Shown piece after piece: positions 11,096 to 35,692 of a stretch of 64,000 nucleotides of DNA (positions are counted from its first letter, which is position 1; every line of letters begins with the position of its first letter). The DNA is taken from NCBI GenBank assembly GCA_028284705.1, contig JANQRE010000010.1:62001-126000 (forward strand). The letters are read 5' to 3'. Position numbers and translations under genes: made by a program. The stretch comes from Paracoccaceae bacterium (lineage in GTDB: Bacteria > Pseudomonadota > Alphaproteobacteria > Rhodobacterales > Rhodobacteraceae). The notes beneath the pieces are model-generated. The model ran no database searches and was not told the origin of the DNA. It saw only the letters and a list, made by a program, of their open reading frames with translations.

Positions 11096-11464
11096 CTACC
11101 GATCGAGTTCTTGAGCAATCTCGCGAAGAACCAAACGCGCACTCCTTTGGCACGCGTCCACTTCGACAACTAGCTTCCGTCTATCACCTTTGCTCAGTCG
11201 CGCCGACTGCCCGTCGGAAGCCCAGGTAGCGGCGTCCTCAAACAGGCAGGTGAGCCGCGCAAACGCTTCGCCGTAGCCACTTATGGCTGCACGCTCTCGT
11301 CGGTACTGATCACTCAACGTCCGCTTTAGAGAAGCTGCGTTGCCGCATCGCCTGACCGTAGCAACGGCCGCTATGGGCCGGGAAATAGCCCAACTAAGGC
11401 TACAACTCCATGTCAGCCATTTCGTCCGTGGAATTTTGCGCTTGCCCCAAACGCAGCAATTCAA
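11096..11464 (-). CDS. Hypothetical protein, doubtful
   Basis: The C-terminal 65 residues (FARLTCLFEDAATWAS, LVVEVDACQRSARLVLREIA) look protein-like, but the N-terminal part overlaps the 3' end of the COG0523 gene and does not. A true start may be internal, near 11330. No family is recognised. The stretch 10885-11095 upstream of the DUF3489 gene shows nothing else. Confidence 0.3.
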   Translation of the reverse strand: MNCCVWGKRKIPRTKWLTWSCSLSWAISRPIAAVATVRRCGNAASLKRTLSDQYRRERAAISGYGEAFARLTCLFEDAATWASDGQSARLSKGDRRKLVVEVDACQRSARLVLREIAQELDR

Positions 11465-12590
11465 GGCTACTCCGAATTTCGGACTGATTCAGATTGCGCC
11501 CGATCAGTACGATCCGAGTTCGGCGATCATCTCCGGTCCAGTTTTTGAGAGGGACAGGGGGGTCAAAAATGTGCTGGACGCCATGGAAGGCGAACGGCGT
11601 ATCGATGCCTCTGAGAAACAGGATGCCTTTAACGCGCAGGATATCGTCACCTTTATGCGCGATCAATGCATCAAACCACTTATCGAAAACAACGTCGTCC
11701 AGCGGCTCATCCAGAATGATCGACATCGACGAGATGCCGTCGTGATCATGGTGATGATGGTGCCCGTGATCATGATCGTCATCGTGATGATGATGGTGGT
11801 GGTGGTCATGGTCTTGACTATGGCCGTGATGATGATCGTCGCTCGCGTTGGCCTCACTTGGGTGCGCGGCATGATCGGAGCCAGTATCTTTGGGCGTGGT
11901 CCAAGCGATGGCGTCGCTTGTAAGCGCATCCTGCCGCATGCTGGTCAAGTTCTGCAACTTGGCAGGGGAGAATTCAGGAGCTAGCGTGTGCAGAATGTCT
12001 GCAGTTGCATTAATGCTCCGAACCCTCTCGGCAATTGCGTCCGACTTAGCCTCGGAGACGAGATCGGTTTTGCTCAACAACAATAGGTCGGCCATCGCGA
12101 CCTGAGATACGGCCTCTGCCTGAGCATCCAAAGTGGCCAAGCCGTTGGCGGCGTCCACGACCGTCACGATACCGTCCATCCGAGTATTCCGACCAAGGAA
12201 CGGGTCCACAAGGAGTGTTTGCAGGATCGGCCCTGGGTCCGCCAATCCTGTCGTCTCAATGACCACGCGATCGAAGTTGAGCATGCCCCTGTCATGCTTG
12301 GCCAACAGTTTCACGAAGGTGTTGGAAAGATCGCCACGAATAGAGCAGCACAGACACCCCGATGGCATCAGCATGATGTCAGTGTCTGGATCCATCGTTT
12401 CGATCATTTCATGATCGAGACCCGTTTCACCAAACTCGTTCACGATCACCGCAATCGGCCCGTACGAGGCGTCCTTCAGTATTCGGTTTAGCAAAGTTGT
12501 CTTGCCGGCACCGAGAAAACCGGTCAGCAACGTTACAGGAATACGGGGATCGTCGGGCGTGTCAGGCGAGGCTTCCGAAGCATAGGTCAC
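11400..12590 (-). CDS. COG0523 metallochaperone GTPase, His-rich (copy 1)
   Basis: A 396-residue member of the CobW/COG0523 GTPases. Walker A is GFLGAGKTT (24-32) and the hallmark metal motif CLCC is at 79-82. The usual NKxD is SKTD. Residues about 240-290 form a His/Asp-rich metal-binding loop, then the CobW C-terminal domain (ILRVKGILFLRG, RRTRIVLIGRNL). Zinc-linked family members (ZigA, YciC, ZNG1) deliver zinc to client enzymes when zinc is scarce. A zinc-type operator lies 21 bases upstream, and znuA and a NicO transporter precede it on the same strand. Confidence 0.92.
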   Translation of the reverse strand: MTYASEASPDTPDDPRIPVTLLTGFLGAGKTTLLNRILKDASYGPIAVIVNEFGETGLDHEMIETMDPDTDIMLMPSGCLCCSIRGDLSNTFVKLLAKHDRGMLNFDRVVIETTGLADPGPILQTLLVDPFLGRNTRMDGIVTVVDAANGLATLDAQAEAVSQVAMADLLLLSKTDLVSEAKSDAIAERVRSINATADILHTLAPEFSPAKLQNLTSMRQDALTSDAIAWTTPKDTGSDHAAHPSEANASDDHHHGHSQDHDHHHHHHHDDDHDHGHHHHHDHDGISSMSIILDEPLDDVVFDKWFDALIAHKGDDILRVKGILFLRGIDTPFAFHGVQHIFDPPVPLKNWTGDDRRTRIVLIGRNLNQSEIRSSLELLRLGQAQNSTDEMADMEL

Positions 12591-12610
12591 AAGAACTGTC
12601 GTCCTATAGT

Positions 12611-12625
12611 TGTAATGTTGTTACA
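12611..12625. promoter_or_regulatory. Putative Zur box upstream of COG0523 copy 1
   Basis: The site TGTAATGTTGTTACA has fully complementary five-base arms. It lies between the NicO gene end and the COG0523 start and shares the TGT-N9-ACA plan with the other island sites. It implies an extra Zur-controlled promoter inside the znuA-NicO-COG0523 strand. Confidence 0.75.
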
Positions 12626-12628
12626 AAT

Positions 12629-13618
12629 CTATTGAAAAACAATCCCGCTGTCCATGTAGCTCCAGGCGAGGCTGGCACTTACAACGGCAATAAGCAGCCC
12701 ACCGGCGACATGAATGGTTGCGGAAAACCGCCGCATCGCGAGACCATCGAGCGGAAATGCTGCCAGACGCCGCGCGGTTACGCCTGAAAATGCGACGATC
12801 AAATTTAGGGAGGCGGTCCCCATGGCCATTGTTCCAACGGCAAGGCAGCCAACGACGAAAATGTCCATCCGCAAGGCAATCACCAAGAGGAATAACGCAC
12901 CAGTGCAGGGCCGCAGTGCAATACTGCCTACGATTCCAAGCCCGTCCCGTACAGAGTTCAGGCCTTGCAGCTGAGACGCCGTAGGTCCGTGTGGGTGGCC
13001 GCAACCGCAGGCATCTAAGTCATTCGCATTTGCGTTGGGCCGCGTTGTCATCCAGGCGCGCAAGCCGCGCAGGATGAGAAGAACACCGATGCTGGCTATC
13101 GCAATGGCACTCGCTGGTGCGAGCCAAGCTTCAGTCAACCCCACGAGGTCCCGGGTGGCCCAGCCAAGCAAGACGCCGCCCACAAGAACGAGCAGAATGG
13201 CCGAGGCGGCCTGCGCGAGGCTGGAGGCCACCGTCAACACCGTCATGCGCCGCATGGTGACGCCACTCGCTAGAGCGGCGCCACCGAGGAGCACTTTGCC
13301 GTGCCCAGGTCCGAGCGCGTGAACGAAACCATAGGCTGCCGTCGCGCTGCACAACGTCAAGATCGCAAGGCCATCTCCGCCTCGGATCGCCCGAAGCGAG
13401 CCTGCCATCATCTTTTGAAAGGCGCGCTGTTCCTGTGCGGCCCAGGTCAGGACGTTGGTCCAATGCGCAAGACCGTAAGAGAGGAGGGATATCGCGCAAA
13501 GCGCTGCAACCAAGGCAAAAAGCAGCCAGTTAATCGACGACTTTTCGACTTCTTGAGCTCGATACGCGGCCGCCGCCCGGGCGGCGACCGAAGGAGTCGT
13601 GGTTCGACCTACAGGCAT
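12629..13618 (-). CDS. NicO/RcnA-type metal transporter
   Basis: A 329-residue membrane protein with six or seven hydrophobic segments. The family metal motif HALGPGHGKV follows the second helix, and a Cys/His loop (CGCGHPHG) lies mid-protein. NicO-family proteins move nickel or cobalt. Here the gene overlaps the znuA stop by ten bases and sits in a zinc operon, so zinc or another divalent metal is more likely than nickel. Direction of transport cannot be read from the sequence. Confidence 0.82.
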   Translation of the reverse strand: MPVGRTTTPSVAARAAAAYRAQEVEKSSINWLLFALVAALCAISLLSYGLAHWTNVLTWAAQEQRAFQKMMAGSLRAIRGGDGLAILTLCSATAAYGFVHALGPGHGKVLLGGAALASGVTMRRMTVLTVASSLAQAASAILLVLVGGVLLGWATRDLVGLTEAWLAPASAIAIASIGVLLILRGLRAWMTTRPNANANDLDACGCGHPHGPTASQLQGLNSVRDGLGIVGSIALRPCTGALFLLVIALRMDIFVVGCLAVGTMAMGTASLNLIVAFSGVTARRLAAFPLDGLAMRRFSATIHVAGGLLIAVVSASLAWSYMDSGIVFQ

Positions 13619-14694
13619 TCCGCCAAGGAGTTCGCCATATTCCGGATGAGCTGCGGATAGAGGGCTGCACCCGGCTCAAGGTTGGCTCCGAGTGGATCAA
13701 TCACACTTGTGCCAGCGTCAGTGCCTTCCAGAACTGTCGCGACAAGGTCTGGATTGAATTGTGGTTCTGCCAGAACACAATCCACACCTTCGTCGCGGAT
13801 ACGGCCCTGGATTTCGGCAATGCGGGCCGGGCTTGGGTCGGATGCGTCACCAATGGAGATTGCACCGGAGGCCGGGAAATCAAAATCGGTTTCGAAATAT
13901 TGGTAGGCATCGTGGAAGACTATGAAGCTGCCGCCACGCACCGGTTCGAGTGTTGCATTGACCTCGACGGAAAGCGCTTCTAGCTCAGTGCGAGCCGCGG
14001 CTGCGTTGGCAAAATATGCGCTGGCGTTTTCAGGATCTGTCTCAGATAGCTGAGCCGCAATGACATTCAGCCAAACGCTCGCGTTCTTGGGAGACAGCCA
14101 GGCGTGCGGATCATGGTCCCCATGGTCATGGCCTTCGTGACCGGCGTGTTCCTCATGATCATCATGGTCATGGTCGTCGTGCTCGGCATGCTCATCATCC
14201 CCATGATCATCGTGGCCGTGTTCCTCGTGGTCATGATCGTGGTCGTCTTTTTCCGCGTGCTCTTCCTCAGCGTGATCGTGATCATCATGGCCGTGGTCAT
14301 CATGATCGTCATGATCCCCGTGATCATGCGCATCGAACAGGGCCCCTTCGCGGAAGTCGAGCAGGGCAATGCCGTCAACCTCGAGCAACTCTGTGACCGC
14401 CGCGTCTTCGGCAAGCGTTTCAATCGCATCGTCCAATTGCGGGGTCAGATCATGTCCAACCCAGAACACAACATCGGCGTTTTGCAAAGCCTCAGCAGAG
14501 GAGGGGCGCATGCTAAAACCATGAGGCGACTCGCCTGACGGAATGACAAGGTCCGGCGTGCCAACACCATCCATCACGCGTGCCACGAGCGAATGAACTG
14601 GAGCGATGTCAACCGCGACGCTGGGCACGTCAGCCAGTGCGGTCCCTCCGATAAGTGCGGCAGAAGCAGAGAGAGATAGAAGCGTCCTAGACAT
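13609..14694 (-). CDS. znuA: Zinc ABC transporter substrate-binding protein ZnuA
   Basis: A 361-residue periplasmic protein. A Sec signal peptide (about 1-21, ending TALA) is followed by the cluster A-I fold. Metal ligands include the His in APVHSL and in ESPHGF, plus FIVFHDAYQY. Residues about 120-195 are a very long His/Asp/Glu-rich loop, which is typical of ZnuA and thought to collect Zn2+. It is divergent from zur, with a Zur-type palindrome between them. Permease and ATPase genes follow zur on the other strand. Confidence 0.95.
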   Translation of the reverse strand: MSRTLLSLSASAALIGGTALADVPSVAVDIAPVHSLVARVMDGVGTPDLVIPSGESPHGFSMRPSSAEALQNADVVFWVGHDLTPQLDDAIETLAEDAAVTELLEVDGIALLDFREGALFDAHDHGDHDDHDDHGHDDHDHAEEEHAEKDDHDHDHEEHGHDDHGDDEHAEHDDHDHDDHEEHAGHEGHDHGDHDPHAWLSPKNASVWLNVIAAQLSETDPENASAYFANAAAARTELEALSVEVNATLEPVRGGSFIVFHDAYQYFETDFDFPASGAISIGDASDPSPARIAEIQGRIRDEGVDCVLAEPQFNPDLVATVLEGTDAGTSVIDPLGANLEPGAALYPQLIRNMANSLAECL

Positions 14695-14705
14695 TGGAAC
14701 TACCC

Positions 14706-14720
14706 TGTGATTTTATTACA
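14706..14720. promoter_or_regulatory. Putative Zur box between znuA and zur
   Basis: The site TGTGATTTTATTACA fits the island's TGT-N9-ACA consensus and is nearly symmetrical. It lies 12 bases upstream of znuA and 16 bases upstream of the preferred zur start, so it could shut both directions. Confidence 0.75.
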
Positions 14721-14735
14721 TTACAAACGACTTAC

Positions 14736-15269
14736 ATGATCGCAATTCTCGTGACAAGCAATCAGCCAAGCACAGTCGGCAATGAGGCGCCACCGGTGGG
14801 GTTCCGTGAGCACGATCACGACATATGTGTAGCAAACGCTTTGGACTCGGCAGAAACGCGATGCACTGAGGAAGGACTGAGATTTACTCCGGTCCGTCGG
14901 AAGGTTCTGGAACTGTTATTGCAAGAGCATCGCGCTCTAGGTGCCTATGCGTTGTTGGACTTGCTTAGGGAAGCCGGATTTGGCTCGCAACCCAACGTGG
15001 CCTACCGCGCGCTTGATTTTCTGACAGAGAATGGGTTTGCGCATAAGATTGAGCGATTGAACGCCTTTGTGGCCTGCAGCCACCCAGGCGAAAACCACTC
15101 TCCGGCCTTCATGATCTGCCGAAAATGCGACTCTGTGGCCGAGGCGTATTCTGCGCCGGCGCGGGGCGCTTTGGGCGCCGCGGCAAAGGCCATGGGATTT
15201 CAGATCGAAAGAACAGTTGTTGAAGCGGAAGGGGTTTGCCCTGACTGTTTGGACAAGGTCGGTATATGA
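14736..15269 (+). CDS. zur: Zinc uptake regulator Zur (Fur family)
   Basis: A 177-residue Fur-family repressor. The winged helix contains RFTPVRRKVLELLLQEH and PNVAYRALDFLTENGFAHKI. The dimerisation domain has CSHPGENHSP, CRKCD and CPDC, the two Cys pairs that hold structural zinc. The start at ATG 14736 lies just after the Zur box; a TTG at 14694 would place the operator inside the gene. The stop overlaps znuC (ATGA). With zinc bound it should repress znuA, znuCB and the other boxed genes. Confidence 0.92.
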   Translation: MIAILVTSNQPSTVGNEAPPVGFREHDHDICVANALDSAETRCTEEGLRFTPVRRKVLELLLQEHRALGAYALLDLLREAGFGSQPNVAYRALDFLTENGFAHKIERLNAFVACSHPGENHSPAFMICRKCDSVAEAYSAPARGALGAAAKAMGFQIERTVVEAEGVCPDCLDKVGI

Positions 15270-15997
15270 CGCTTATCAATGTTAGAAATCTGAGCGTTGC
15301 CTACGGCGCCAATACGGTGCTGCGTGACGTCGACCTGACCGTGTCGCCCGGAGAAATTGTGACCATTGTAGGCCCAAACGGGTCAGGCAAGACCAGTCTA
15401 CTCAGGGCGATCATTGGTGCAACGCCGCCCGCGCAGGGGTCTGTTGACCTCAAACCGCAGCTCAAGATCGGCTATGTTCCCCAGCGGCTTCACATTGATC
15501 AAACCCTGCCCATAACGGTCGAGCGTTTCATGCGATTGACCGATCGCGCCTCGAGAAACACATGCAAAGATGCGCTTGATGCCGCCGGTGTGCCCGATTT
15601 GCTGGATCGCCAGATGACGCAATTGTCTGGAGGCCAGTTTCAACGTGTCTTACTCGCCCGCGCCCTGATCAACTCGCCGGACATTTTACTGCTTGATGAG
15701 GCCACACAAGGCCTCGATCAACCCGGCTCGGCGGCGTTTTATCGTCAGATTGAGACGGTGCGGGCCCAAACCGGGTGCGCAATTCTGATGATCAGTCACG
15801 ATTTACACGTCGTGATGAGCGCTTCAGATCGTGTCATCTGCCTGAATGGTCACGTCTGTTGTCAGGGAACGCCAGCTTTTGTTGCCTCTGCCCCGGAATA
15901 TCGCGCGTTGTTTGGTGCCGGGACAGGAGGCGCTTTGGCGCTTTACCGTCACGACCACGACCAACACCACGATCACAACCGAAATGCAGCTGAGTAA
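15266..15997 (+). CDS. znuC: Zinc ABC transporter ATPase ZnuC
   Basis: A 243-residue ABC ATPase. Walker A is GPNGSGKTS, the signature is LSGGQFQRVLLARAL and Walker B is DILLLDEA, followed by SHDLHVVMSASDRVICLNGHV. The C-terminus ends in a His-rich tail (HDHDQHHDHN), as ZnuC proteins often do. It overlaps zur upstream and shares one base with znuB downstream, forming zur-znuC-znuB. Confidence 0.95.
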   Translation: MTLINVRNLSVAYGANTVLRDVDLTVSPGEIVTIVGPNGSGKTSLLRAIIGATPPAQGSVDLKPQLKIGYVPQRLHIDQTLPITVERFMRLTDRASRNTCKDALDAAGVPDLLDRQMTQLSGGQFQRVLLARALINSPDILLLDEATQGLDQPGSAAFYRQIETVRAQTGCAILMISHDLHVVMSASDRVICLNGHVCCQGTPAFVASAPEYRALFGAGTGGALALYRHDHDQHHDHNRNAAE

Positions 15998-16794
15998 TGC
16001 TTGACGATTTCATGACCCGCGCAACGCTCGCCGGGATCGGTGTCGCCTGCGCCGCCGCGCCATTGGGATGTTTTGTTGTTTGGCGACGGATGGCGTATTT
16101 CGGCGATGCAACGGCACATGCCGCGATTTTGGGTGTGGCTCTATCACTTGCTTTTGAGCTGTCAATCTTTCCTGGTGTCTTGGCCGTTGCCTTGATCATG
16201 GCTCTCGTGGTGACCCAGCTTGCGGGGCGCGGCTATGCGATGGATACGCTTTTGGGTGTGATGGCCCACTCGGCTCTGGCCTTTGGTCTTGTTGCCGTAT
16301 CGTTCCTATCGGGCATCCGGATTGATCTGATGGCCTACCTGTTCGGAGACATTCTCGCCGTATCCCGAACCGATCTGCTGGTGATCTGGGGCGGTGCAGC
16401 CTTGGTCATCGGGCTCATCACGTGGCGGTGGTCTGGACTGTTGGCCTCAACTCTGAACGAGGATCTGGCCCATGCTAGTGGTTTTGACCCCAGGCGGGAG
16501 CAACTCATCCTGACATTGTGCCTCGCGATTACGGTTGCGGTGGCGATCAAGGTAGTCGGCGTTCTGCTTATTGCAGCACTGTTGATCATACCAGCTGCAG
16601 CGGCGCGGGTGGCGGCACGCACCCCAGAGACGATGGCGGCAATTGCCGCCGTGATTGGCACTGTGTCCGCTGTCGTAGGACTACGAGGTGCTTACGTGTT
16701 GGACACGCCCGCAGGTCCAACGATCGTGTGCGTTGCCGCGATCATTTTTGCGGCTCTTAACCTGGTGCGGTTTCGCGGGCACCGGCCCACTTGA
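15997..16794 (+). CDS. znuB: Zinc ABC transporter permease ZnuB
   Basis: A 265-residue membrane protein of the ABC-3 family with about eight transmembrane segments. Typical motifs are WRRMAYFGDATAHAAILGVA near the N-terminus and VGVLLIAALLIIPAAAARV near the middle. It forms the zinc channel used by ZnuA and ZnuC. Confidence 0.94.
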   Translation: MLDDFMTRATLAGIGVACAAAPLGCFVVWRRMAYFGDATAHAAILGVALSLAFELSIFPGVLAVALIMALVVTQLAGRGYAMDTLLGVMAHSALAFGLVAVSFLSGIRIDLMAYLFGDILAVSRTDLLVIWGGAALVIGLITWRWSGLLASTLNEDLAHASGFDPRREQLILTLCLAITVAVAIKVVGVLLIAALLIIPAAAARVAARTPETMAAIAAVIGTVSAVVGLRGAYVLDTPAGPTIVCVAAIIFAALNLVRFRGHRPT

Positions 16795-17108: not shown

Positions 17109-17162
17109 ATTCTGTTCGCCGACCCCCTTTACATTGTCGTCATCCTACGCGACATGAACTTA

Positions 17163-17177
17163 TGTTATACTGTTACA
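17163..17177. promoter_or_regulatory. Putative Zur box upstream of hisI-like gene
   Basis: The site TGTTATACTGTTACA matches the island consensus and is near-palindromic. It is 18 bases before the preferred ATG. Its position rules against the upstream start at 17154. Confidence 0.72.
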
Positions 17178-17195
17178 CCTCGCAAGGATGACTCC

Positions 17196-19743: not shown

Positions 19744-20397
19744 ATGACAATACAAAACGCACGGCTGACTTCACCACCTGTCGAGATTGCAGTCGCGGAT
19801 ACGCCCAGCGTCTTGTCAAAGATTAACACAGCACCCTGCATTGCAACCGTTTGGCGACGGCAACCCCTTAGCTCTTTTCAGACTTGGCTGGATGACCTTG
19901 ATGTAGCTGTTTTGCCGCAAGCGCGTTTGATCCTACCCGCCGAGGCTGTGAATGACGCGCTAACACATGTGTGCCGACAAGCCGGAATGCCGAACTGCCC
20001 TGAACGTGCCATGCTCGCGGGTGACATCGCAGCGCTGGCACATATGTTTTGTGACGTGGCTTTGTGCGACTATCTCCGTGTTCGCTTGACCGTGCTGAAC
20101 GGTGACCCGAGTTTCACCCAACAAGAGATTGAGAATGGCAGACGCCTAATTTGCGTTTATCGGGGGCCGAGACTGGCCATAGGCCAAGCCGCATCAGAGA
20201 TGGCCTCGTACATACCAGTTTCAAACGGCGTTCCATTTATCATGCGTAGAGAGAGCTCAAGCTCACTCCGATCCAACATCCTTCGTTGCAGGGTTCTTCC
20301 TTCTGACGGCGCGCCGTTGACGAGCCTCGTTCTCGCTCTCGACCCCGTCAGCGCCTCGGAAAGAACACCTGATCTCAAAGCCAAAAGACGTCATTGA
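19744..20397 (+). CDS. DUF1826-like protein with degenerate motif
   Basis: A 217-residue soluble protein. The early part (APCIATVWRRQPL) and the later LRVRLTVLNG, RRLICVYRGPRLAIG and MRRES pattern resemble DUF1826, a family found beside COG0523 genes in zinc operons of proteobacteria. The Cys/His/Asp cluster that I expect between these strands (CPRFHxD-like) reads DPSFTQQE, so likely metal ligands are lost. The function is unknown. It lies 19 bases before the adhC-like gene and is probably cotranscribed with it. Confidence 0.55.
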   Translation: MTIQNARLTSPPVEIAVADTPSVLSKINTAPCIATVWRRQPLSSFQTWLDDLDVAVLPQARLILPAEAVNDALTHVCRQAGMPNCPERAMLAGDIAALAHMFCDVALCDYLRVRLTVLNGDPSFTQQEIENGRRLICVYRGPRLAIGQAASEMASYIPVSNGVPFIMRRESSSSLRSNILRCRVLPSDGAPLTSLVLALDPVSASERTPDLKAKRRH

Positions 20398-20416: not shown

Positions 20417-21580
20417 ATGAAAACGCGTGCCGCTATCGCTTGGGGACCAAATCAGCCCTTAGAAATCGAGGAAATAGACTTGGAGGGCCCGAAGGACGGC
20501 GAGGTGCTTGTCCGGATTGTCACCACTAGCCTATGCCACACAGATGTCTTCACGCTGTCCGGTGAAGACCCGGAGGGCCTGTTTCCCTGTATCCTCGGCC
20601 ATGAGGGCTGCGGAATTGTCGAGGAGGTCGGCAAAGGCGTGACCTCGGTCAAACCCGGTGACCATGTGATCCCGCTCTACGTGCCCGAAGACCCAGAATG
20701 CCCTTACATTAAGTCAGGAAAAACGAACCTATGTCAGACAATCCGCGCGACCCAAGGGGCCGGCGTCATGCCCGACGGTACCTCGCGTTTTTCGTACAAG
20801 GGCAAACAGATCCTGCACTACATGGGCACCAGCACTTTCAGTGAATACACCGTTCTGCCCGAAATCTCGGTTGCCAAGATCTCCAAGGAAGCGCCCCTGT
20901 CCAAGGCGTCTGTGATGGGCTGTGCGGTGCCGACTGGCATTGGCGCCGTCCGCAACACTGCGAAGGTTGAGGCTGGCGCAACTGTCGCGGTCTTCGGGCT
21001 GGGCGCTGTGGGGATGGCCGTCATTCAGGGTGCCGTCTTGAAGGGCGCATCCCGTATCATTGGAGTCGATATCAACCCAAACAAATTCCCGCTCGCCAAA
21101 TCACTCGGAGCCACCGAGTGCCTAAATCCCAAAGATCACTCTGCGCCGATCCACGAAGTGTTGATCGAGATGACGAACGGCGGGTTGGACTATACCTTCG
21201 AAGCTGTCGGCAATGTGGAACTCATGCGATCGGCGCTGGAGGCCTGTCACAAGGGTTGGGGCGAATGCACTGTCATCGGTGTCGCCGGCGCAGGCCAGGA
21301 AATCTCGACGCGGCCGTTTCAACTTGTGACTGGTCGCGTCTGGAGGGGGACTGCGTTCGGCGGAGTCTTGGGCCGCAGCCAGTTGCCCGGAATGGTCGAT
21401 GAATGGTTGCGCGGAGACTTCGACGTCGATCCCTACATCACGCATCACATGCATCATGACCAGATCAACACAGCGTTTGATCTGCTCAAGGCTGGTGAGT
21501 CCATTCGGTCCGTTATCCATTTCCAGCCCGAAGCGACGATGACAGTCAATTCACTGCCGGGGCAAATCGTACCCAGATAG
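20417..21580 (+). CDS. Class III alcohol dehydrogenase, structural zinc site half lost
   Basis: A 387-residue S-(hydroxymethyl)glutathione dehydrogenase-type protein. Catalytic zinc ligands are intact: C40 (SLCHTD), H62 (LGHEG) and C169 (VMGCAVPTG). The NAD site GLGAVG and the class III motif [17 protein letters not shown] are present. The structural zinc site, four Cys in E. coli FrmA, is reduced: D92, C95, I98, C106. Loss of two ligands means that the structural zinc is probably absent. Next to zinc-uptake genes this suggests a formaldehyde-detoxifying isozyme that uses one zinc rather than two. Expression is likely coupled to the DUF1826-like gene. Confidence 0.93.
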
Positions 21581-21735: not shown

Positions 21736-22116
21736 CTACCCCAGCAAGACAAAACTCATCTTATTGCCATCAAGATCGCGGACATAAGCGCCGTAGAAAT
21801 CAGGCCCATACATTGGCCGTGGACCAGGATCGCCCTCATTTGCGCCGCCCTCGGCCAGAGCGATCTGATGCGCGGCATCGACCTCCTCTTTGCTCTCACA
21901 TGAAAACCCAACCATGTTACCGTTTCCACAAGCGGCGGTGTCCTTATTGTATGGAGTTGCAACCCAGACGCGCCCGCCCCCTCGCAATTCGTAGCAAAAA
22001 GCGTGCGGCATATATTCTGCCGTCAACTTGCCGCCGATGGCAGGCAAAACGGCGTCGTAAAACTTGCGAGCTTCTTTGACATCATTTGAGCCAAGCATGA
22101 CGTAGTTAAGAGACAT
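21736..22116 (-). CDS. VOC/glyoxalase-fold protein
   Basis: A 126-residue single-module protein. MSLNYVMLGSNDVKEARKFYD begins the family fold and GPDFYGAYVRDLDGNKMSF ends it with the usual Asp-Gly-Asn turn. The substrate is unknown. It lies 66 bases downstream of the iota-carbonic-anhydrase-like gene and is probably in the same Zur-linked transcript. Confidence 0.88.
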   Translation of the reverse strand: MSLNYVMLGSNDVKEARKFYDAVLPAIGGKLTAEYMPHAFCYELRGGGRVWVATPYNKDTAACGNGNMVGFSCESKEEVDAAHQIALAEGGANEGDPGPRPMYGPDFYGAYVRDLDGNKMSFVLLG

Positions 22117-22182: not shown

Positions 22183-22644
22183 TTAGCCATCCACCGGCGG
22201 GAACCAGGTGAGCGATGAATGATGCAGCGAAATTAAAACGCGACCATCTAGCTTATGATACGCGAACGTGTAATCGGCCCGCGTTGCATTCCCTGCACCA
22301 TCTACAAATGTGTAGTGACCCATGTCCTTGTACCCCAGACCACCCGCCTTCAGGATTGGACCAACCGCGCTTTGGAATTCGACGTTCTTCCAGCCGCGCT
22401 TCAGAAAACCACTGTCTTGCGGATAGTCGGGGTCACCTCCGACAAAGTACGCTTTCGCCCCCTTCTGATCTAGGCGGATCACGTCTGCCAAAGTGGGTTT
22501 GAACAAAAGTGGTTCGTCAGGGTCGCCAAAATCATAGAGTTCGAGTAACCCGTCCACGTCTTGATCAGTCACACACTTCGCCCAGGCGCGTTGCGCAGTC
22601 ACAACCTCGGCTTTGGTCATCGGCTCGAATTTTCGGTCAGTCAT
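22183..22644 (-). CDS. Candidate iota-carbonic anhydrase (COG4337, NTF2-like)
   Basis: A 153-residue protein of the NTF2/SnoaL-like fold. The order LLFKPT (46-51), YFVGG (66-70), DSGFLKRGW, MGHYTF (108-113), ADYTF (123-127) and ISLHHSS (138-144) is the pattern that I know from COG4337 proteins, the group holding iota-carbonic anhydrases. Some of those work without any metal. The HHSS ending also occurs in other SgcJ/EcaC-type proteins, so the call is not certain. No signal peptide is seen, implying a cytoplasmic protein. A Zur-type box 43 bases upstream suggests use under zinc shortage in place of zinc carbonic anhydrase. Confidence 0.68.
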   Translation of the reverse strand: MTDRKFEPMTKAEVVTAQRAWAKCVTDQDVDGLLELYDFGDPDEPLLFKPTLADVIRLDQKGAKAYFVGGDPDYPQDSGFLKRGWKNVEFQSAVGPILKAGGLGYKDMGHYTFVDGAGNATRADYTFAYHKLDGRVLISLHHSSLTWFPPVDG

Positions 22645-22687
22645 CTGTTGGTTGGTCTCGTCAGGTTGAATTCGTCTTCCTTGAGTA

Positions 22688-22702
22688 TGGCATAACGTAA
22701 CA
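22688..22702. promoter_or_regulatory. Putative Zur box between iota-CA-like gene and thrS
   Basis: TGGCATAACGTAACA differs from the island consensus in one outer base and resembles the 30604 site closely (ACGT centre). It lies 43 bases before the carbonic-anhydrase-like gene and 144 before thrS, so it could serve both. Confidence 0.6.
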
Positions 22703-22846
22703 TTTGAAGTTGCGAAACACTCGCTGCTCGGCTAGCAGCAATTGCAAATGCCAAGAAATGAAGCTGATGCGCAACCCTCGACGGACGAAACCGTCACTGA
22801 AATTGCGCCCCGCTCGCAGTAAGATTGATGGCAAGGACGTGAGAAA

Positions 22847-24778
22847 ATGATCCATGTGAACCTTCCCGATGGCGCAACGCGCACTCTGTCTGAAGATACG
22901 ACCGCTGCCGGACTTGCATCTGACATTAGCAAGAGCCTTGCCAAACGCACCGTTGCCGCAGTCGTAGACGGCGTTTTGTCCGATTTGTCGGCACCTCTTC
23001 CCGATGGCGCAACCGTTGAACTGATTGACCGTGATGATCCGCGAGCGCTTGAACTCATCCGACATGACCTGGCGCATATTTTGGCTGAAGCAGTGCAAAG
23101 CATCTGGCCCGGCACTAAGACGGCGATTGGCCCGGCGATTGAGCATGGATTCTACTACGACTTCGAGCGCGACACGCCTTTCACACCCGAGGACCTTCCG
23201 GTAATTGAGAGAAAGATGCGTGAGATCATCGCCGCGCGTATGCCGTTCACTTGCGAAGTCTGGAAACGAGATCAGGCCAAGGCGCATTTCGAAGACGCTG
23301 GAGAGACGTGGAAACTCGCTCTGCTGGATGCAATCCCTGAAGGCGAGCCAGTAAAAATTTACCGCCAAGGCGACTGGCTTGATCTCTGCCGTGGGCCGCA
23401 CATGCGCCATACCGGGGATGTTGGAAGCGCATTCAAGCTGACACATGTGGCCGGCGCGTACTGGCGCGGAGATGCAAAGAACCCGATGCTCAGCCGCATC
23501 TACGGCATCGCCTTTGCAGACATAGAAGCGTTAGGTACCCACGAGATGATGGTGGCCGAGGCCGAAAAGCGCGACCATCGTCGTCTCGGCCGCGAAATGG
23601 ACCTGTTTCATTTCGAGGAGGTGGCTCCTGGGTCCGTGTTTTGGCATCCCCGCGGATGGCGACTGTTCCAGACGTTGATTGGCTATATGCGCGACCGTCA
23701 GGAAGAGGTTGGCTATGTCGAAGTGAACTCACCGGACATCATGGATCGCGCGCTCTGGGAAACATCTGGCCACTGGCAGAACTATCGCGAGAACATGTTT
23801 CTCGCGCAGACCCAAGATGATCGCGACTATGCCCTGAAGCCGATGAACTGTCCGGGTCACATGTTGATTTATGGTCAAGGGGTGAAAAGCTATCGCGATT
23901 TGCCGCTAAAGATCGCCGAGTTCGGCAAAGTCCACCGCTATGAACCATCTGGCGCATTGCACGGGCTTTTGCGCGTGCGAAGTTTCACCCAGGATGACGC
24001 CCATATTTACTGCACGGACGAGCAGTTGACCGAGGAGTGTCTCAAGGTCAACAATCTCGTTTTGTCGATCTATCGCGACTTCGGCTTCGACGACGTGCAC
24101 ATCAAGCTTTCCACGCGGCCTGAGCAACGTATCGGCAGCGAAGAACGATGGGACCGTGCCGAGGAATCGTTGCGGACAGTCCTGGACCAGGCGGGGCACG
24201 CTTATACGATCTTCGATGGTGAAGGCACGTTCTACGGGCCGAAGCTCGAGTACGTCTTGCGTGACGCCATTGGGCGCGACTGGCAATGTGGAACCCTGCA
24301 GGTAGATTTCAATCTGCCCGAGCGTTTCGGCACAACCTATGTGGCGTCCTCCGGGGAAAAGCTGCCACCGGTCATGCTGCACCGGGCCCTGTTTGGGTCG
24401 CTTGAGCGGTTCACCGGTGTCTTGATCGAACACCATGCGGGGCATCTGCCGCTTTGGCTTGCCCCCGTCCAGATCGTGGTTGCGACGGTGACCGGCGCAG
24501 CCGATGAGTATGCTGAACACGTGGCCCAAACCATGAAGCGTGCCGGTCTCCGTGTAGAGACTGATTTGCGAAATGAGAAGCTCAGCTACAAGGTGCGCGA
24601 ACATGCACTGAAGAAAGTTCCAATCCAAATCGCAGTAGGTGCAAGAGAAACAGATGAGCAGTCCGTTTCCATGCGACGCCGCGGGAAGAAGGAAAACCAG
24701 ACCATGAAGCTGGAAGACGCAGTTGCGATGTTGGTCGAAGACGCGAAAACGCCACGTCAGAGCGACGCTGTCTCTTAA
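22847..24778 (+). CDS. thrS: Threonyl-tRNA synthetase
   Basis: A 643-residue ThrRS of full length: TGS domain (1-62), editing domain with the HDLAHIL and [10 protein letters not shown] motifs, class II catalytic core and anticodon-binding domain (about 535-643). The catalytic zinc ligands C335, H386 and H512 correspond to E. coli C334, H385 and H511 and are all kept. It lies beside a Zur-type box, and zinc-regulated ThrRS duplicates are known in COG0523 neighbourhoods. It may therefore be a second ThrRS rather than the housekeeping one. The window cannot show whether another copy exists. Confidence 0.95.
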
Positions 24779-24800
24779 AGCACCACCTTGGGGATCTGCC

Positions 24801-25973
24801 GTGAATACATTCAACATGGGGCAAGTTCCGCCCGTTACATTGGGCGCTGGTCGGATCAGTAAGTTACCAGCGATTGCAGCCCGCTTGGGCGGCGGTCCGG
24901 TGCTTGTGGTTGCGGACGCGATATTGGCTAATCTGGGCGTGACGGAAAAGCTGGCAGGTCAGATGTCCGAAAAGGGTCTGCCTGTCGAGATCGCAGCCGA
25001 TGTATCGGGTGAGCCGAAGGAAACGCTTGTTGATGCGCTGTGTGATCGGGCGCGTCAAGCCGGGGCCAAGGTCGTCGTCGGACTGGGCGGCGGTGCTGCC
25101 ATGGATGCGGCCAAACTGGTCGCGGCGATTGCCACGAGCAACCAACCTGCACACGACTTTGCCTTGGCCGCACAGCCCCTGCCGCGGAGCGGGCTGCCAG
25201 CCATTGCAATCCCGACGACGGCCGGGACCGGTTCCGAAGTTACGCGAACATCGGTCATCTCGACATCGGACGGGTCGAAGATCTGGTTTTGGGGTGAGGA
25301 GTTAATGTTCTCGCAGGCGATCCTGGACCCCGAGTTAACGCTCACCTTGCCGCCAAAGCTCACCGCTTGGACCGGTATCGATGCAGTTGCCCATGCCTTG
25401 GAAGGATCCACCGCGAAAAACACCAGCCCCGCCGGTCTTCTCTATGGATTGGAAGCACTGCGCATTCTCGTGGAGGCTCTTCCGGGCGCTGTGGACAATG
25501 GCGCGGATATTGAACTGCGTAGTAAGGTTCTATGGGGCAGCATGGTCGCAGGTCTCGCGCTTCACAACTGCAACACGCATATGGGGCACAACATCAGCCA
25601 CGCTCTTGGATCACTGGCGCGCGTTCACCATGGTCTGGCCACAGGTCTCGCGTTGGAAGTAAGCTTGCCTTGGCTGGTCTCGAAACAGGACGGACATGCG
25701 AACTATGCGCAGGCAGCGCAAGCATTGGGTGGTCCTGCCAAAGCGGAGGCCTTACCTGAAGCGTTCTCGGATTTGATGCGCCGATGCCAGATAGCGGCTG
25801 AATTGCCCAAGGGATGCGAGGGCGTCACTGGAACGGCTCTGGCGGATGCAATGCGAAATGCGGCGAATATCGGAATGGCGCGAAACGCAATGTGCTATAT
25901 CACTGACAGCGACTTTCAAGAGCTAGCTTCTAGGGTAACAAGCCTGCCGGTCGCAGCCACCGCCTCCTCATAA
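24801..25973 (+). CDS. Iron-type alcohol dehydrogenase
   Basis: A group III (iron-dependent) alcohol dehydrogenase of about 390 residues. The NAD site GLGGGAAMDAAK, the strand TTAGTGSEVT, and metal ligands in TGIDAVAHALEG, GHNISHALG and VHHGLATG are all seen. It starts at GTG 24801 or ATG 24816; upstream sequence overlapping thrS has no coding look. It follows thrS by 22 bases, so expression is likely linked. Using iron in place of zinc fits the theme of the island. The substrate is unknown. Confidence 0.9.
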   Translation: MNTFNMGQVPPVTLGAGRISKLPAIAARLGGGPVLVVADAILANLGVTEKLAGQMSEKGLPVEIAADVSGEPKETLVDALCDRARQAGAKVVVGLGGGAAMDAAKLVAAIATSNQPAHDFALAAQPLPRSGLPAIAIPTTAGTGSEVTRTSVISTSDGSKIWFWGEELMFSQAILDPELTLTLPPKLTAWTGIDAVAHALEGSTAKNTSPAGLLYGLEALRILVEALPGAVDNGADIELRSKVLWGSMVAGLALHNCNTHMGHNISHALGSLARVHHGLATGLALEVSLPWLVSKQDGHANYAQAAQALGGPAKAEALPEAFSDLMRRCQIAAELPKGCEGVTGTALADAMRNAANIGMARNAMCYITDSDFQELASRVTSLPVAATASS

Positions 25974-28108: not shown

Positions 28109-29160
28109 TTTTCGCCTCCGCCCAATTGAACCCATAGGATACGGCCAGACTCCTCACCGACGAATAGCCACGCGTCCGATGTAATGGCGAGAGCTGCAAT
28201 AGGAGATCCGCTGGAACCCTTTACGACAAAGTCCTCTGCGTCTTCAGATGCTCGACCAGCCAACACTGCCCCGTCAGCAAAGCCTGCAAGGATTGCATCA
28301 TGGCCAAGCATCCCTGTCACAGCGGTGCAGACTTGCTTGCCGCCATAGCAACAGGTTGCAGGTGAGCGGCCCATCGGACCGTCCTTGCCGTCGAACGGCC
28401 AGCAGATTGCTTCGTCGGCACCAGAGGTCGCCAGAAATGGGGCGCCGCCCATCCAGATGAAGTCCTTCACCTTTGCCGGGTAACCAGACATCTGCATGTC
28501 TGCCTTATCGCGCAAACGCCAACCGTGCATCGCATTCTCTTGCATTGATGTGACGACGCATTTTCCATCGGGACTAAATGTCACCGCCCCATGCGAGCCC
28601 TTCCATCTGAGATTGGTCGACTTCCAGCGACGATTGCCTCTTTCCCAAACCGTGGCGCCCCCATAATGACCAACGGCCAATCGACGTCCTTTCGGATCGA
28701 AGGCCAGTCCGCCGACAGTACTTGGATGTTCGAATGTACGAGGTTGGGTCTCACCATCGCTCCACACCGTAGCGGTCTTGCCGGAAGAGCAAGCGAACAG
28801 TTTTGGCCCGGCAGCCACGCAGTCTACCCAGCGGCTCCCAAAACACGCGATCTCTTCGACTGTGCCATCCGCTGAGGTTCTAAGGAACCGCCCATCATCG
28901 CCGCCGGTGAAGATGGCGCGCGCCTCTGGATCAGCGGTGGTGCAAAGAATGGCACCGTGATGGGCTTTAACCACTTTAGGCGGGCTATCCGGCTCGAAGA
29001 TGAGTATTGTACCGTCACCCAATCCAGCCGCAACGGACGACCCCACAACTGCCGCGCCTGTCACAGGCGCACCAGTGTCAAGATTTAGACCTTCTCGCTC
29101 CAATTGCGTGGAAGCGAAGCCGTCGCGCCTCGGGTTGGTCCGAACGGCTTCCGCTGTCAT
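28105..29160 (-). CDS. WD40-repeat protein
   Basis: A 351-residue beta-propeller. Repeated units such as [51 protein letters not shown] and [14 protein letters not shown] are WD40-like. The start at ATG 29160 overlaps the COG0523 stop by four bases, preferred over 29172. No signal peptide, so a cytoplasmic scaffold is likely. WD40 genes are a known neighbour of some alphaproteobacterial COG0523 genes; a role in client recognition is inference. Confidence 0.82.
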
Positions 29161-30125
29161 GCTGCCCGGCACGCGGCAAACCCGTCCTCAAGACCCATTG
29201 TGTCAAGGTCACGACCAATGAACACGATCCGGGATTGTCGATCGCCATCGGGCCAAGTTCCCATCGGCGCACCATCCATCAGCATGTGCACACCCTGAAA
29301 GACGTATCGATCCTCCTCACCCTGAAAGTCCAAGATGCCTTTAGATCGCAGGATGTCTTGGCCACGTGTCTGGAGAAGCTGCCCGAACCACCTCTGGAAC
29401 TTGTCGAGGTCGAGAGGGGTGTCTGAGGTCAACGAGATGCTTTTCACATCGTCATCGTGCTCATGATCATGATCTGAGGTCAGGAAATCAGGCTCCACCT
29501 CAAGGACGCGGTCCAGACTGAATGCATTAAGACCGAGCACTTCCTCCAGATCAGCTCCACAGTGCTCGGTGCGGATGATCTTCGCATAAGGATTGATTTT
29601 GCGAATGCGATCCTCAACGCGGCCAAGCCCGTCAGCCTCAACCAAATCAGTCTTATTCAGCAACACGATATCCGCGAATGCGATCTGCTCTTCGGCTTCA
29701 TGATGTTCGCCCAGCTGGTCGCTTAGATGCACAGCATCCGCGACAGTTACGATGGCATCAAGGCGCGTCCGGTCTGCGACATCCTGGTCGACGAAGAATG
29801 TCTGCGCCACCGGAGCCGGATCAGCGAGACCGGTGGTCTCAACGATGATTGCGTCGAACTTGTCGGCGCGCTTCATCAAACCGCCAAGAATACGGATCAG
29901 ATCGCCACGAACCGTGCAGCAGATGCAGCCGTTGTTCATCTCGAAGACTTCTTCGTCGGCATCAACTACGAGATCGTTGTCGATCCCTTCCTCGCCGAAC
30001 TCATTCACGATAACGGCGTATTTTTTGCCATGGCGCTCGGTCAGAATGCGGTTGAGTAGTGTGGTTTTCCCAGCTCCAAGAAAGCCGGTCAGAACGGTGA
30101 CAGGAACCTGAGCAGTTTTTTCCAT
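29157..30125 (-). CDS. COG0523 metallochaperone GTPase (copy 2)
   Basis: A 322-residue CobW/COG0523 protein. Walker A is GFLGAGKTT (14-22), the metal motif CICC is at 67-70, and NKTD is intact. A short His/Asp stretch ([10 protein letters not shown]) precedes the C-terminal domain. AAGGA lies seven bases before ATG 30125; the in-frame ATG at 30140 overlaps the Fur-type gene. It is the second such GTPase in 18 kb, but less His-rich than the first, so the two may serve different clients. Confidence 0.92.
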
Positions 30126-30136
30126 TGGATATCCTT

Positions 30137-30541
30137 TCAATGAGAGGGCACAGCTGTGCTGCAGTCGCTGCAGCGGCCGTGAAGTTCGAGAACTGAATGA
30201 TTGGGGGCGAAGCCTGTTCGTTTAGACAAGCCTGCTATACTGTCTGCAAAGTCGTTATCGACATGCTCGGTCACAGTTCCGCAGTCGTCGCATATGGCAA
30301 AAACCGGTGTCTTTCCGTCATGCCCGCCGCAGCAAACTGTCCATGCATTGAGCGACTCGATGCGGTGGACCTTCCCCGCTTCCAGGAGCTTTTCCAAAGC
30401 ACGATAGATTGTTGTTGACGCCGTCACGCCGTCGTCACGGAGCCCTTCCAGAATGTCGTAGGCAGATACCGGACGATCCTGTTTCTGCAAATACTTGAAC
30501 ACACGATCCGCATGCGTGACGCGCTTTGAGCGTTTCTCCAC
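30137..30541 (-). CDS. Second Fur/Zur-type regulator
   Basis: A 134-residue Fur-family protein. It has [20 protein letters not shown] as the recognition region and [15 protein letters not shown] and CSDC as Cys motifs in the metal domain. The Cys pairs match Zur-type structural zinc sites. It lies upstream of COG0523 copy 2 in one operon and diverges from DUF1636 across a Zur-type palindrome. It may act alongside the Zur at 14736 or answer a different zinc range. Confidence 0.88.
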
Positions 30542-30603
30542 AGCATTGCCTCCCGAAACTCTGGCTCTTGACGATACGTAACAAGCGCAGTTACTAAACG
30601 CAA

Positions 30604-30618
30604 TGTTACAACGTTACA
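30604..30618. promoter_or_regulatory. Putative Zur box between Fur-type gene and DUF1636
   Basis: TGTTACAACGTTACA is a strong near-palindrome with flanking A/T. It is 63 bases upstream of the Fur-type gene and 20 bases upstream of DUF1636, so it could govern both divergent operons. Confidence 0.75.
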
Positions 30619-30637
30619 TCTTGGGGGCGTTCTTGCT

Positions 30638-31057
30638 ATGGAGTCAGCCAAACCAATCCTATCGATTTGCATGACCTGTCGCGATGGCCGCGAAGGTGCC
30701 TGTGATACTCGTGGTGGATCTCGTTTGGCCCGGCGCGTAGCCGAAAAGCTGGCGCGAGATAGCGATCCACAAATGCAGTTGCGTGGCGTGGAATGCATGA
30801 GCCAATGCAAGCGATCCTGCATCGTGTCATTGGCGGATGAGGGTCGGTTCACATATGTGTTCGGCGAGCTTGACCCTCACGATGACACACATATCGACGC
30901 ACTTTTCGAACTGGTCACTCAGTATTCGAAAGCACCTGAGGGCTTTCTTGAGCGAAAGGATCGACCCGCTCCACTGCAAGCGAGTATTCTAGGTCGGCTA
31001 CCGCCACCAGATAGCCAATCCCCGCTCGTTTCAGATCTAACGCTGGCTGAGACATGA
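30638..31057 (+). CDS. DUF1636 Cys-rich metal-binding protein
   Basis: A 139-residue protein with a thioredoxin-like ferredoxin pattern: C11, C14, C22, then C53, C57 and C61 (CMTC, CMSQCKRSC). DUF1636/COG5469 proteins are predicted metal or Fe-S binders found near CobW and cobalamin genes. The stop overlaps the ABC ATPase gene by four bases, so it belongs to the importer operon. A proline-rich tail follows the domain. Confidence 0.85.
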   Translation: MESAKPILSICMTCRDGREGACDTRGGSRLARRVAEKLARDSDPQMQLRGVECMSQCKRSCIVSLADEGRFTYVFGELDPHDDTHIDALFELVTQYSKAPEGFLERKDRPAPLQASILGRLPPPDSQSPLVSDLTLAET

Positions 31058-31887
31058 AGGATTTCGCTGAGGATATGTCTCTTTCCGGAAGCACCGACGC
31101 CAAACCCACACACGGCGCGTGTCTTTCCGTCAAGGACGCGAGTTGGCATACACCTAGCAGCCGCAAACCAGTCCTGCATCCAATCAGTTTTGATCTCTCG
31201 CCCGGCCAGGTCCTCGGTATTGTTGGTCCCAACGGCGCAGGGAAGTCCACGCTGCTCAGACTGCTCTACCGGTATTATCGCCCCACAAGTGGCTCGGTCG
31301 AAATTGATGACAACGATATTTGGCGGCTCTCAGCGCGAGACACGGCGCGCAAGGTCGCAGCAGTCCTGCAAGAGCAGCCAACAGATTTTGCGCTGACTGT
31401 TCGCGAGATCGTTGCCCTCGGACGCACGCCGCATCGGACTGGATTTGGTGGTGCTTCAGGTCGGAGAGACGCTGAAATTATTGCAAGCGCGCTAGAACGT
31501 CTGGGCCTTGGTGGTTTCGCGGAACGACATCTGGGTACTTTGTCTGGTGGTGAGCGTCAGCGTGTGATGGTCGCCCGTTCGCTCGCTCAAGAACCGCAGC
31601 TTTTGATCTTGGATGAACCCACCAACCACCTCGACATTCGGCACCAGCTTGAGGTTCTGAAATTGATCCGGGACCTCCCCCTGACGATTGTCACCTCGCT
31701 GCACGATCTAAACATGGCAGCAGATGTTTGCGACCATGTGCTGCTGCTGGATGACGGAAAAGCCGTCGGTTTTGGCGCGCCACTAGACGTGTTCTCGGAG
31801 ATCGCGATTTCGAAGGCCTTTCATGTGACAGCGCGGCACGAACTCCTTGCACCGAGCAATACGAAACATATGACATTCCATCTCTAG
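31054..31887 (+). CDS. FecE/BtuD-type ABC importer ATPase
   Basis: A 277-residue ATPase. Walker A is GPNGAGKST, the Q-loop region is LQEQPTDFALTVREIVALGR, the signature is LSGGERQRVMVARSL and Walker B is LLILDEPTNHLD. This is the metallophore/cobalamin uptake class. It is cotranscribed with DUF1636, a binding protein and a FecCD permease. Substrate is unknown; context favours a chelated metal, maybe zinc. Confidence 0.9.
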   Translation: MKDFAEDMSLSGSTDAKPTHGACLSVKDASWHTPSSRKPVLHPISFDLSPGQVLGIVGPNGAGKSTLLRLLYRYYRPTSGSVEIDDNDIWRLSARDTARKVAAVLQEQPTDFALTVREIVALGRTPHRTGFGGASGRRDAEIIASALERLGLGGFAERHLGTLSGGERQRVMVARSLAQEPQLLILDEPTNHLDIRHQLEVLKLIRDLPLTIVTSLHDLNMAADVCDHVLLLDDGKAVGFGAPLDVFSEIAISKAFHVTARHELLAPSNTKHMTFHL

Positions 31888-31902
31888 AACAGGACCAACC
31901 AG

Positions 31903-32838: not shown

Positions 32839-32841
32839 GTC

Positions 32842-34897: not shown

Positions 34898-35530
34898 TTA
34901 GATTTCAATGGCCTCTGCGATTGCCAAGGCATCGTCGAGTTCGACCCCAAGGTACTGGACTGTGCTGTCCATCTTTGTGTGCCCAAGCAGAAGCTGAACC
35001 GCCCTCAGGTTGCCTGTCTTCTTGTAGATTTGCGTGACCTTGGTGCGCCGCATGGAATGGGTGCCGTAGGCACTCGCCTCTAGGCCGATCGACGTGACCC
35101 AGTCGCGGACTATCCGTGCGTATTGGCGGGTCGAGATGTGCAGGCGCTCATGAAATCGACCTGGCCAAAGGTACTCGGAACCAACCATCAACTCGTCTTC
35201 CATCCACTTCTCGACCGAGGCCCGAGTGCCTTCGGTGATCTCAAAGCGCACAGGTTTCTGAGTTTTGCTTTGCAGGACGGACGCGCGCTCTTTGATCTGA
35301 CCCGAAGACATCACATCCACGACTTTCATTTTCACCAGATCACAACCGCGAAGCTTGCTGTCGATTGCCATATTGAAGAGCGCGAGATCTCGGTGGTTCT
35401 CGGCCAATTCAAGCCTCACTCGGATCGCCCAGACGTGCTTTGGTTTCAGTGGGCGTTTCTGACCGACGATACGGCCCTTGTTCCATGCTGGGCGAAGGGC
35501 GCGAATGGCAGGTAAATTTGGTGTTTCCAT
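34898..35530 (-). CDS. Compact tyrosine recombinase
   Basis: A 210-residue catalytic-domain-only integrase starting at METPNLPAIR. The catalytic set is visible: Arg in DSKLRGCDL, HSMRR (H-x-x-R), LGHTKMDSTVQY with the second His and the Tyr following. It lacks the usual N-terminal core-binding domain. Close relatives of this short form are widespread in Alphaproteobacteria on mobile DNA. The longer frame to 35620 is unlikely to be translated. It marks the edge between the zinc island and the next block. Confidence 0.9.
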   Translation of the reverse strand: METPNLPAIRALRPAWNKGRIVGQKRPLKPKHVWAIRVRLELAENHRDLALFNMAIDSKLRGCDLVKMKVVDVMSSGQIKERASVLQSKTQKPVRFEITEGTRASVEKWMEDELMVGSEYLWPGRFHERLHISTRQYARIVRDWVTSIGLEASAYGTHSMRRTKVTQIYKKTGNLRAVQLLLGHTKMDSTVQYLGVELDDALAIAEAIEI

Positions 35531-35692
35531 GACTGATCCTCCGATCCGCCATACCCTCCCAAAACGACAACCAAACGCTGACGTCTCATGGTAGCATGCA
35601 GTCCTGCAGTGCACGCGCATCTACATCTTCATGCAGTGCCGCCTCGAAGTGGCTCGGTGATATCTCGCATTGGAACGTGCGCAGCGTCTGCG

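Follow-up and report, generated by a model that had tools for sequence, protein, structure and literature searches.

A gene in the window (the whole stretch of DNA that was analysed, 64,000 nucleotides long) probably encodes a Zur-repressed, zinc-free backup carbonic anhydrase of the iota class (iota-CA). The activity of the protein, the absence of metal, the binding of Zur, the derepression and the physiological role are what we infer from homology and gene context. Carbonic anhydrase is a textbook example of a zinc enzyme. Most of the backups for zinc famine that were proposed earlier swap one metal for another, whereas the window iota-CA would remove the metal altogether. The relevant features are as follows, with bit scores from the Zur matrix described below.

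11400..12590 (-), COG0523/CobW GTPase (cobW1) with a His-rich stretch
12608..12628, predicted Zur box ahead of cobW1, 14.8 bits
12629..13618 (-), metal transporter of the NicO type (match at the family cut-off)
13609..14694 (-), znuA
14703..14728, predicted overlapping Zur boxes between znuA and zur, 18.3 and 13.5 bits
14736..15269 (+), Zur (FUR family); the ORF opens at 14694 and the start at 14736 is inferred
15266..15997 (+), znuC-type ATPase
15997..16794 (+), znuB-type permease
17160..17180, predicted Zur box before the inferred hisI2 start, 17.3 bits
17196..17669 (+), phosphoribosyl-AMP cyclohydrolase paralogue hisI2; the ORF opens at 17154 and the start at 17196 is inferred
19744..20397 (+), DUF1826 protein
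20417..21580 (+), class III alcohol dehydrogenase (S-hydroxymethylglutathione dehydrogenase)
21736..22116 (-), VOC/glyoxalase-family protein, 66 bp downstream of iota-CA
22183..22644 (-), iota-CA, COG4337 type, 153 aa, ATG start
22685..22705, Zur-type box with a 15-bp core at 22688-22702, between iota-CA and thrS2
22847..24778 (+), second threonyl-tRNA synthetase thrS2, divergent from iota-CA
24723..25973 (+), iron-type alcohol dehydrogenase; the listed ORF overlaps the thrS2 end
29157..30541 (-), second CobW GTPase (cobW2, 29157-30140) and Fur-family regulator (30137-30541)
30601..30621, Zur-type box before fur-like/cobW2 and DUF1636, 16.7 bits

The protein is a COG4337-type iota-CA

When the protein was compared with all PDB chains by phmmer, the best matches were 7c5x (E 3e-35), a three-domain chain of the Bigelowiella natans iota-CA, and 7c5v (E 5e-17), the Anabaena iota-CA, followed by the COG4875-type 3h51 at E 0.0025. 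Among the matches listed, 7c5v and 7c5x were well separated from other NTF2-like folds, and the identity to the characterised enzymes was approximately 33-37% over aligned positions. The earlier note had called the protein a COG4337-like iota-CA and had named a best match to an unrelated SnoaL/NTF2 enzyme as the outcome that would speak against it. The results bore out the name: the C-terminal end of the product is ISLHHSSLTWFPPVDG, and an unrelated SnoaL/NTF2 enzyme was rejected, since the crystallised iota-CAs were far ahead and no Pfam family matched at E up to 1. The COG4875 metalloform was also rejected, since PF08332 (CaMKII_AD), which we take to be the model behind COG4875-type iota-CAs, had no match in the whole genome at E 0.001 and 3h51 reached only E 0.0025.

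The earlier note had also proposed a profile search and a structure prediction. The sole NCBIfam match was NF047901, ‘metal-independent carbonic anhydrase’ (E 8e-20), but its 71 bits fall short of the naming cut-off of 350 bits, which places the protein in the wider COG4337 group only and not in the NF047901 equivalog. The same cut-off is missed by the relatives L176 (192 bits), L184 (partial, 129 bits), and L050 (81 bits). The predicted fold is an alpha+beta cone that is closest to the iota-CA structures, but the pLDDT is below 50 at residues 49-53, the catalytic Thr51 included.

By alignment and spacing, residues T106, Y124, F138, H197, and S199 of Anabaena all2909 correspond to T51, Y66, F80, H141, and S143 of the window iota-CA. 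All 45 aligned sequences share the four residues essential in all2909, with the active-site T51, Y66, H141, and S143 and the HHSS end present throughout (45/45), and the mean column identity of the alignment is 84%. Thus, to judge from its sequence, the window protein is almost certainly a member of the COG4337 (metal-free) iota-CA group. The parts of PMC8132391 consulted describe all2909 and B. natans Bn86287 as COG4337 iota-CAs, report that ICP-OES showed none of six metals in these two tested enzymes and that both stayed active after chelation, and give the COG4875-type iota-CA of T. pseudonana as Mn-dependent. By homology to the two tested enzymes, the window iota-CA would likewise be independent of metal. 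The same parts state that prokaryotic iota-CA forms are predicted to carry a signal peptide; inspection of the 153 residues by eye showed none.

A Zur-type box precedes the iota-CA gene

The box core, TGTTACGTTATGCCA, reads on the minus strand from 22702 to 22688. It ends 43 bp before the iota-CA ATG, as the earlier note had placed it, and lies approximately 142 bp from the thrS2 start; the box centre is 51 bp upstream of the iota-CA start. Of its two halves, TGTTACG makes a good Zur half-site, and TATGCCA agrees with TATAACA at five of seven positions. No consensus (sigma-70-like) promoter was found in 22600-22860.

We scored the window with a symmetric 21-bp Zur matrix that was built from 53 sites in 28 zur-znuA regions, all from other genomes in the same family, with the own genome and the iota-CA-bearing loci L002 and L003 left out; its consensus is ACATGTTATAATATAACATGT. 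With this independent matrix the box scored 14.2 bits and ranked sixth among 63,980 window positions, the next non-overlapping site having 9.4 bits. Four of the five sites that outscore it precede zinc-related genes. The fifth is the top site of the window (7494-7514, 20.9 bits), which lies just past a tRNA-Gln gene without a zinc gene and is probably an AT-rich chance match; a high score alone is thus no proof of function.

Scores of at least 14.2 bits were found at a fraction of 3.1e-5 of 735,058 positions (80 loci). When the 202-bp intergenic region was dinucleotide-shuffled 5000 times, 4 of the shuffles attained the box score; of 363 equally long stretches taken from 22 other loci of the own genome, none did, and their maximum was 8.4 bits. 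Five published Zur sites of P. denitrificans ranked the box sixth among 127,972 positions on both strands; according to the consulted part of PMC5387054, the P. denitrificans sites come from MEME/MAST analysis of zinc-responsive promoters, and binding to such promoters was observed by EMSA. In each of 31 zur-znuA regions the best site (16.9-27.3 bits) outscores the box, and second sites in such regions are as low as 10.4 bits. A chance origin was rejected on the basis of the matrix rank, the shuffles, the own-genome stretches, and the rank with the published sites, and it is very likely that the predicted Zur box before iota-CA is real.

Literal matching of the box was uninformative by itself, since the 15-mer with up to three mismatches had 27 places in the genome as compared with 32 for the reversed-pattern control; the degenerate palindrome with one mismatch (105 matches against 130 in the control) was equally uninformative. 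Only the weighted matrix separates Zur sites from controls, and even the matrix is blind to some species. On the Paracoccus aestuarii plasmid p190534, an iota-CA relative and a fur/znuA pair lie approximately 6 kb apart, but the whole 16 kb, znuA included, had no matrix site of at least 10 bits, so that absent boxes are weak evidence. In the plasmid loci L216 and L218 no site reached 10 bits, and the plasmid locus L217 had five sites of 10.2-12.4 bits.

Zinc-related genes surround the iota-CA gene

The zinc neighbourhood, which was absent from the earlier note, strengthens its reading that iota-CA is placed under Zur. Several genes of the block have counterparts elsewhere in the genome: a ThrRS on contig C43 is 54% identical to thrS2, a HisI on C17 is 45% identical to hisI2, and a second match to the class III alcohol dehydrogenase on C9 (58% identical) contains two stop codons. 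C43 also carries a second zur-znuA locus, with a second Zur match at C43:3722-4228 (54% identity) that has stop codons inside the aligned stretch. There is one beta-class carbonic anhydrase in the genome, outside the zinc block. The second ThrRS retains the C/H/H set of residues, which we take to be the zinc ligands of ThrRS, and genes in the zinc block therefore need not be zinc-free. As a set, they are ‘spare copies’ and not all zinc-free. The consulted part of PMC2770081 lists HisI, ThrRS, gamma-class carbonic anhydrase (gamma-CA), and COG0523 as Zur-linked, and DUF1826 is named there in the legend of a figure on a Zur-regulated COG0523 cluster.

The VOC gene is perhaps co-transcribed with iota-CA, and the same gene pair is present in the closest relative, L001. 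Class III alcohol dehydrogenases (82-95% identical) occur alongside iota-CA, DUF1826, cobW, or thrS in L009, L036, L054, L161, L181, and L184, a company which suggests that formaldehyde detoxification may belong to the zinc-famine set.

On one side the zinc block is bounded by tRNA-Gln (7413-7487), a serine recombinase (7708-9384), DUF2924, and DUF3489, and on the other by a phage-type integrase (34898-35620), so that the stretch 7413-35620 may be a genomic island; a direct repeat of the tRNA-Gln gene (at least 12 bases) was not found elsewhere in the window. The Fur-like gene, cobW2, DUF1636, and an iron/B12-type ABC transporter (30137-33894) share the box region at 30601 and are possibly a separate metal or cobalamin cluster.

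Recurrence among relatives

A scan of GTDB genomes gave relatives, mostly in MAGs, of which the best 80 of 84 are 73-93% identical and span Alpha- and Gammaproteobacteria, Planctomycetes, Myxococcota, and other phyla. In the own family, a relative occurs in 28 of 295 genomes and a close one in six of these, the own genome being included in both counts. We counted as zinc genes the matches to CobW, ZnuA, Zur, HisI, DUF1826, and ThrRS by tblastn at E up to 1e-8; the count has no identity floor and thus includes housekeeping copies and fragments, and ABC ATPases, alcohol dehydrogenases, amidase, VOC, Rrf2, and NicO were left out of it.

A zinc gene flanked iota-CA in 21 of the best 80 of 84 relatives, and in 6/27 family loci, five of these six being among the 23 distant loci of the family; in 59 of the 80 the scanned flanks held none. 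None of 31 control stretches contained a zinc gene (0/12 offset stretches of 12.4 kb and 0/19 other own-genome stretches around loose box-pattern matches, the latter of only approximately 3 kb each as compared with up to 12.4 kb for the iota-CA loci). Boxes of at least 14 bits were found in 15 of the best 80 of 84 relatives and in 4/27 family loci, against 0 and 0 in the controls, and were lacking in 65 of the 80. Column-permuted matrices gave a mean of 3.0 such boxes per 80 loci and shuffled loci a mean of 3.7, with at most 8 in either case. The loci L193, L194, and L196 are repeats of L001, L036, and L041; they were left out of the tree and are counted within the 27 family loci and within the 107 loci (104 distinct) considered below, and L194 is among the 6/27 loci with a zinc gene while its twin L036 is among the 21/80.

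The closest relative, L001 (93% identical), has no box, its best promoter-region score being -4.3 bits, and L002 and L003 have none within 300 bp of iota-CA, though a znu/zur cluster lies in their flanks. In a tree of 105 iota-CA proteins made by a quick method, 54 of the 102 inner branches had a value under 80, and the zinc-neighbour label required 24 changes as compared with 24.2-24.3 when shuffled. Since the label is no more clustered than the shuffles on this poorly resolved tree, the link looks scattered and not confined to one clade. Zinc linkage of iota-CA thus comes and goes, and many of the relatives are likely to be under other control.

In 11 of the 107 loci, iota-CA itself or the co-oriented gene run that includes it is preceded by a box of at least 15 bits. 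It directly precedes iota-CA in L050 and L078 and lies 388 bp ahead of it in L066. The order is box-hisI-iotaCA in L061, box-folE-hisI-iotaCA in L027 and L038 (folE was called by Pfam in L027, and the L038 gene belongs to the same cluster), box-cobW-orf-iotaCA in L023, box-orf-DUF1007-iotaCA in L006, box-cobW-cobW-DUF1826-iotaCA in L176, and box-cobW-...-thrS-...-iotaCA, with hisI divergent, in L181 and L184. Small opposite-strand ORFs overlap the gene run in L023, L061, and L184. The loci L176, L181, and L184 sit in the other, all2909-like branch of the tree, with matches to 7c5x of 9e-73 (L176) and 5e-57 (L184). In L033 and L057 the box ahead of iota-CA is weaker (12-13 bits), and L043, L062, L173, and L178 have a site upstream with opposite-strand genes in between.

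Proposed role and alternatives

The gene context points to a cytoplasmic, metal-free carbonic anhydrase that would be kept as a backup for zinc famine. Under zinc sufficiency, Zn-loaded Zur on the box would block the transcription of iota-CA and perhaps also that of the divergent thrS2. As zinc falls, Zur would be released, and the ZnuABC importer, the COG0523 GTPase, the spare HisI and ThrRS, and iota-CA would be made. The iota-CA would then hydrate CO2 without zinc through Thr51 and Tyr66, helped by Ser143, and bicarbonate-dependent carboxylations could continue while the beta-class enzyme of the cell starves.

It is conceivable, although we regard it as unlikely, that the box serves thrS2 only and that iota-CA is a passenger under unrelated control, for example by CO2 or pH. 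One box is common to two divergent genes, L001 has iota-CA without a box, and the scanned flanks of most of the best 80 of 84 relatives (59/80) are free of zinc genes, all of which would fit such an arrangement. The box is, however, nearer to the iota-CA start (43 bp) than to that of thrS2 (approximately 142 bp), a strong box stands directly before iota-CA in L050 and L078, and one heads a co-oriented run with iota-CA in L027, L038, L061, L176, L181, and L184.

Two further readings concern the protein itself, and we give each of them only a slim chance. An NTF2-like protein with an iota-CA pocket might have another task in zinc famine, such as ligand binding or the conversion of another substrate, given the many functions among NTF2-like folds, the identity of approximately 33-37% to the characterised enzymes over aligned positions, and the 71 bits against the 350-bit cut-off of NF047901; such a task is at odds with the retention of all four all2909-essential residues in 45/45 sequences, the 84% mean column identity, and the distance of 7c5v and 7c5x from other NTF2-like folds among the matches listed. 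Alternatively, the iota-CA might bind Mn or Fe in place of zinc; reliance on such a metal is reported for the T. pseudonana enzyme and has been proposed for the Zur-linked gamma-CA, and the logic of a stand-in would hold with any metal but zinc. The window sequence nevertheless groups with COG4337 and not with the COG4875 type to which the Mn-dependent enzyme belongs, and both COG4337 enzymes tested were free of the six metals assayed and active after chelation, according to the consulted part of PMC8132391.

Beyond the Zur-repressed, metal-free backup proposed for the window, we lean, with some reserve, towards the view that Zur regulons have repeatedly recruited metal-free iota-CAs, from no fewer than two branches that lie deeply apart (the window type and the all2909 type), and that these enzymes replace zinc-dependent carbonic anhydrase without any need of zinc themselves. 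On this view, a shortage of zinc would be among the main causes of the persistence of a metal-less carbonic anhydrase in bacteria. A Zur-controlled substitute enzyme is of a known kind, and the new part is the metal-free carbonic anhydrase class in that role. It would give the bacterial metal-free iota-CA a physiological role, is open to simple testing in marine bacteria that grow in culture, and has a bearing on the bacterial CO2/bicarbonate balance where zinc is scarce.

Relation to known systems

Cyanobacterial thrS2 is a Zur-controlled second ThrRS, which the window thrS2 resembles in its place in a zinc regulon; we know of no iota-CA neighbour of the cyanobacterial gene. The carbonic anhydrase YtiB is of the beta class, hence a zinc enzyme, and its fold is other than that of iota-CA. 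In the part of PMC6103462 consulted, ytiB is a carbonic anhydrase gene in the Zur regulon of B. subtilis, to which the window gene is alike in this respect, and the label thrS2 appears there as well. A zinc-depletion COG0523 cluster of Burkholderia with a carbonic anhydrase gene, class unspecified, is found in the consulted part of PMC10563805.

The parallel with the gamma-CA of the Pseudomonas zinc operon, drawn by the earlier note, proved apt, since gamma-CA is among the Zur-linked paralogues in the part of PMC2770081 consulted. The gamma-CA (Cam) of the gamma/beta-proteobacterial COG0523 clusters is likewise a backup carbonic anhydrase with COG0523, HisI, and ThrRS paralogues under predicted Zur control, but it is of the gamma class, has an unrelated fold, and needs a metal (Fe is proposed there). 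The same source proposes that Zur-linked paralogues use another metal or none.

The window iota-CA resembles all2909 and Bn86287, as described in the consulted part of PMC8132391, in sequence, NTF2-like cone fold, T/Y/H/S site, and HHSS end. Unlike these enzymes, it is a single 153-aa domain in which no signal peptide was seen by eye, and its gene belongs to a zinc island and has a Zur-type box in front of it. The parts of PMC8132391 and PMC8425729 consulted showed no zinc regulation of iota-CA. The earlier note knew of no described link between Zur and iota-CA, and our search of open-licence literature, as far as its texts were accessible, agrees, with no statement of such a link found by spellings other than the Greek letter iota.

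Additional observations

Perfect Zur-like palindromes elsewhere in the genome lie near another cobW (L220, C18:34947), a family-5 solute-binding protein gene (L223, C43:154928), and a hemerythrin/HNH gene pair (L219, C12:57473). Inspection by eye of the regions upstream of iota-CA showed TTGACCAATCG in three planctomycete loci (L067, L071, L074) and a TGGCATCCTG-like stretch in L010, L011, L021, L025, L037, L043, and L080; these stretches are perhaps the site of another regulator or a transferred promoter. The COG4337 relatives on plasmids of Paracoccus aestuarii, Asticcacaulis, and Agarilytica (L215, L216, and L217) are annotated as ‘phosphoribosyl-AMP cyclohydrolase’, which is apparently a wrong name.
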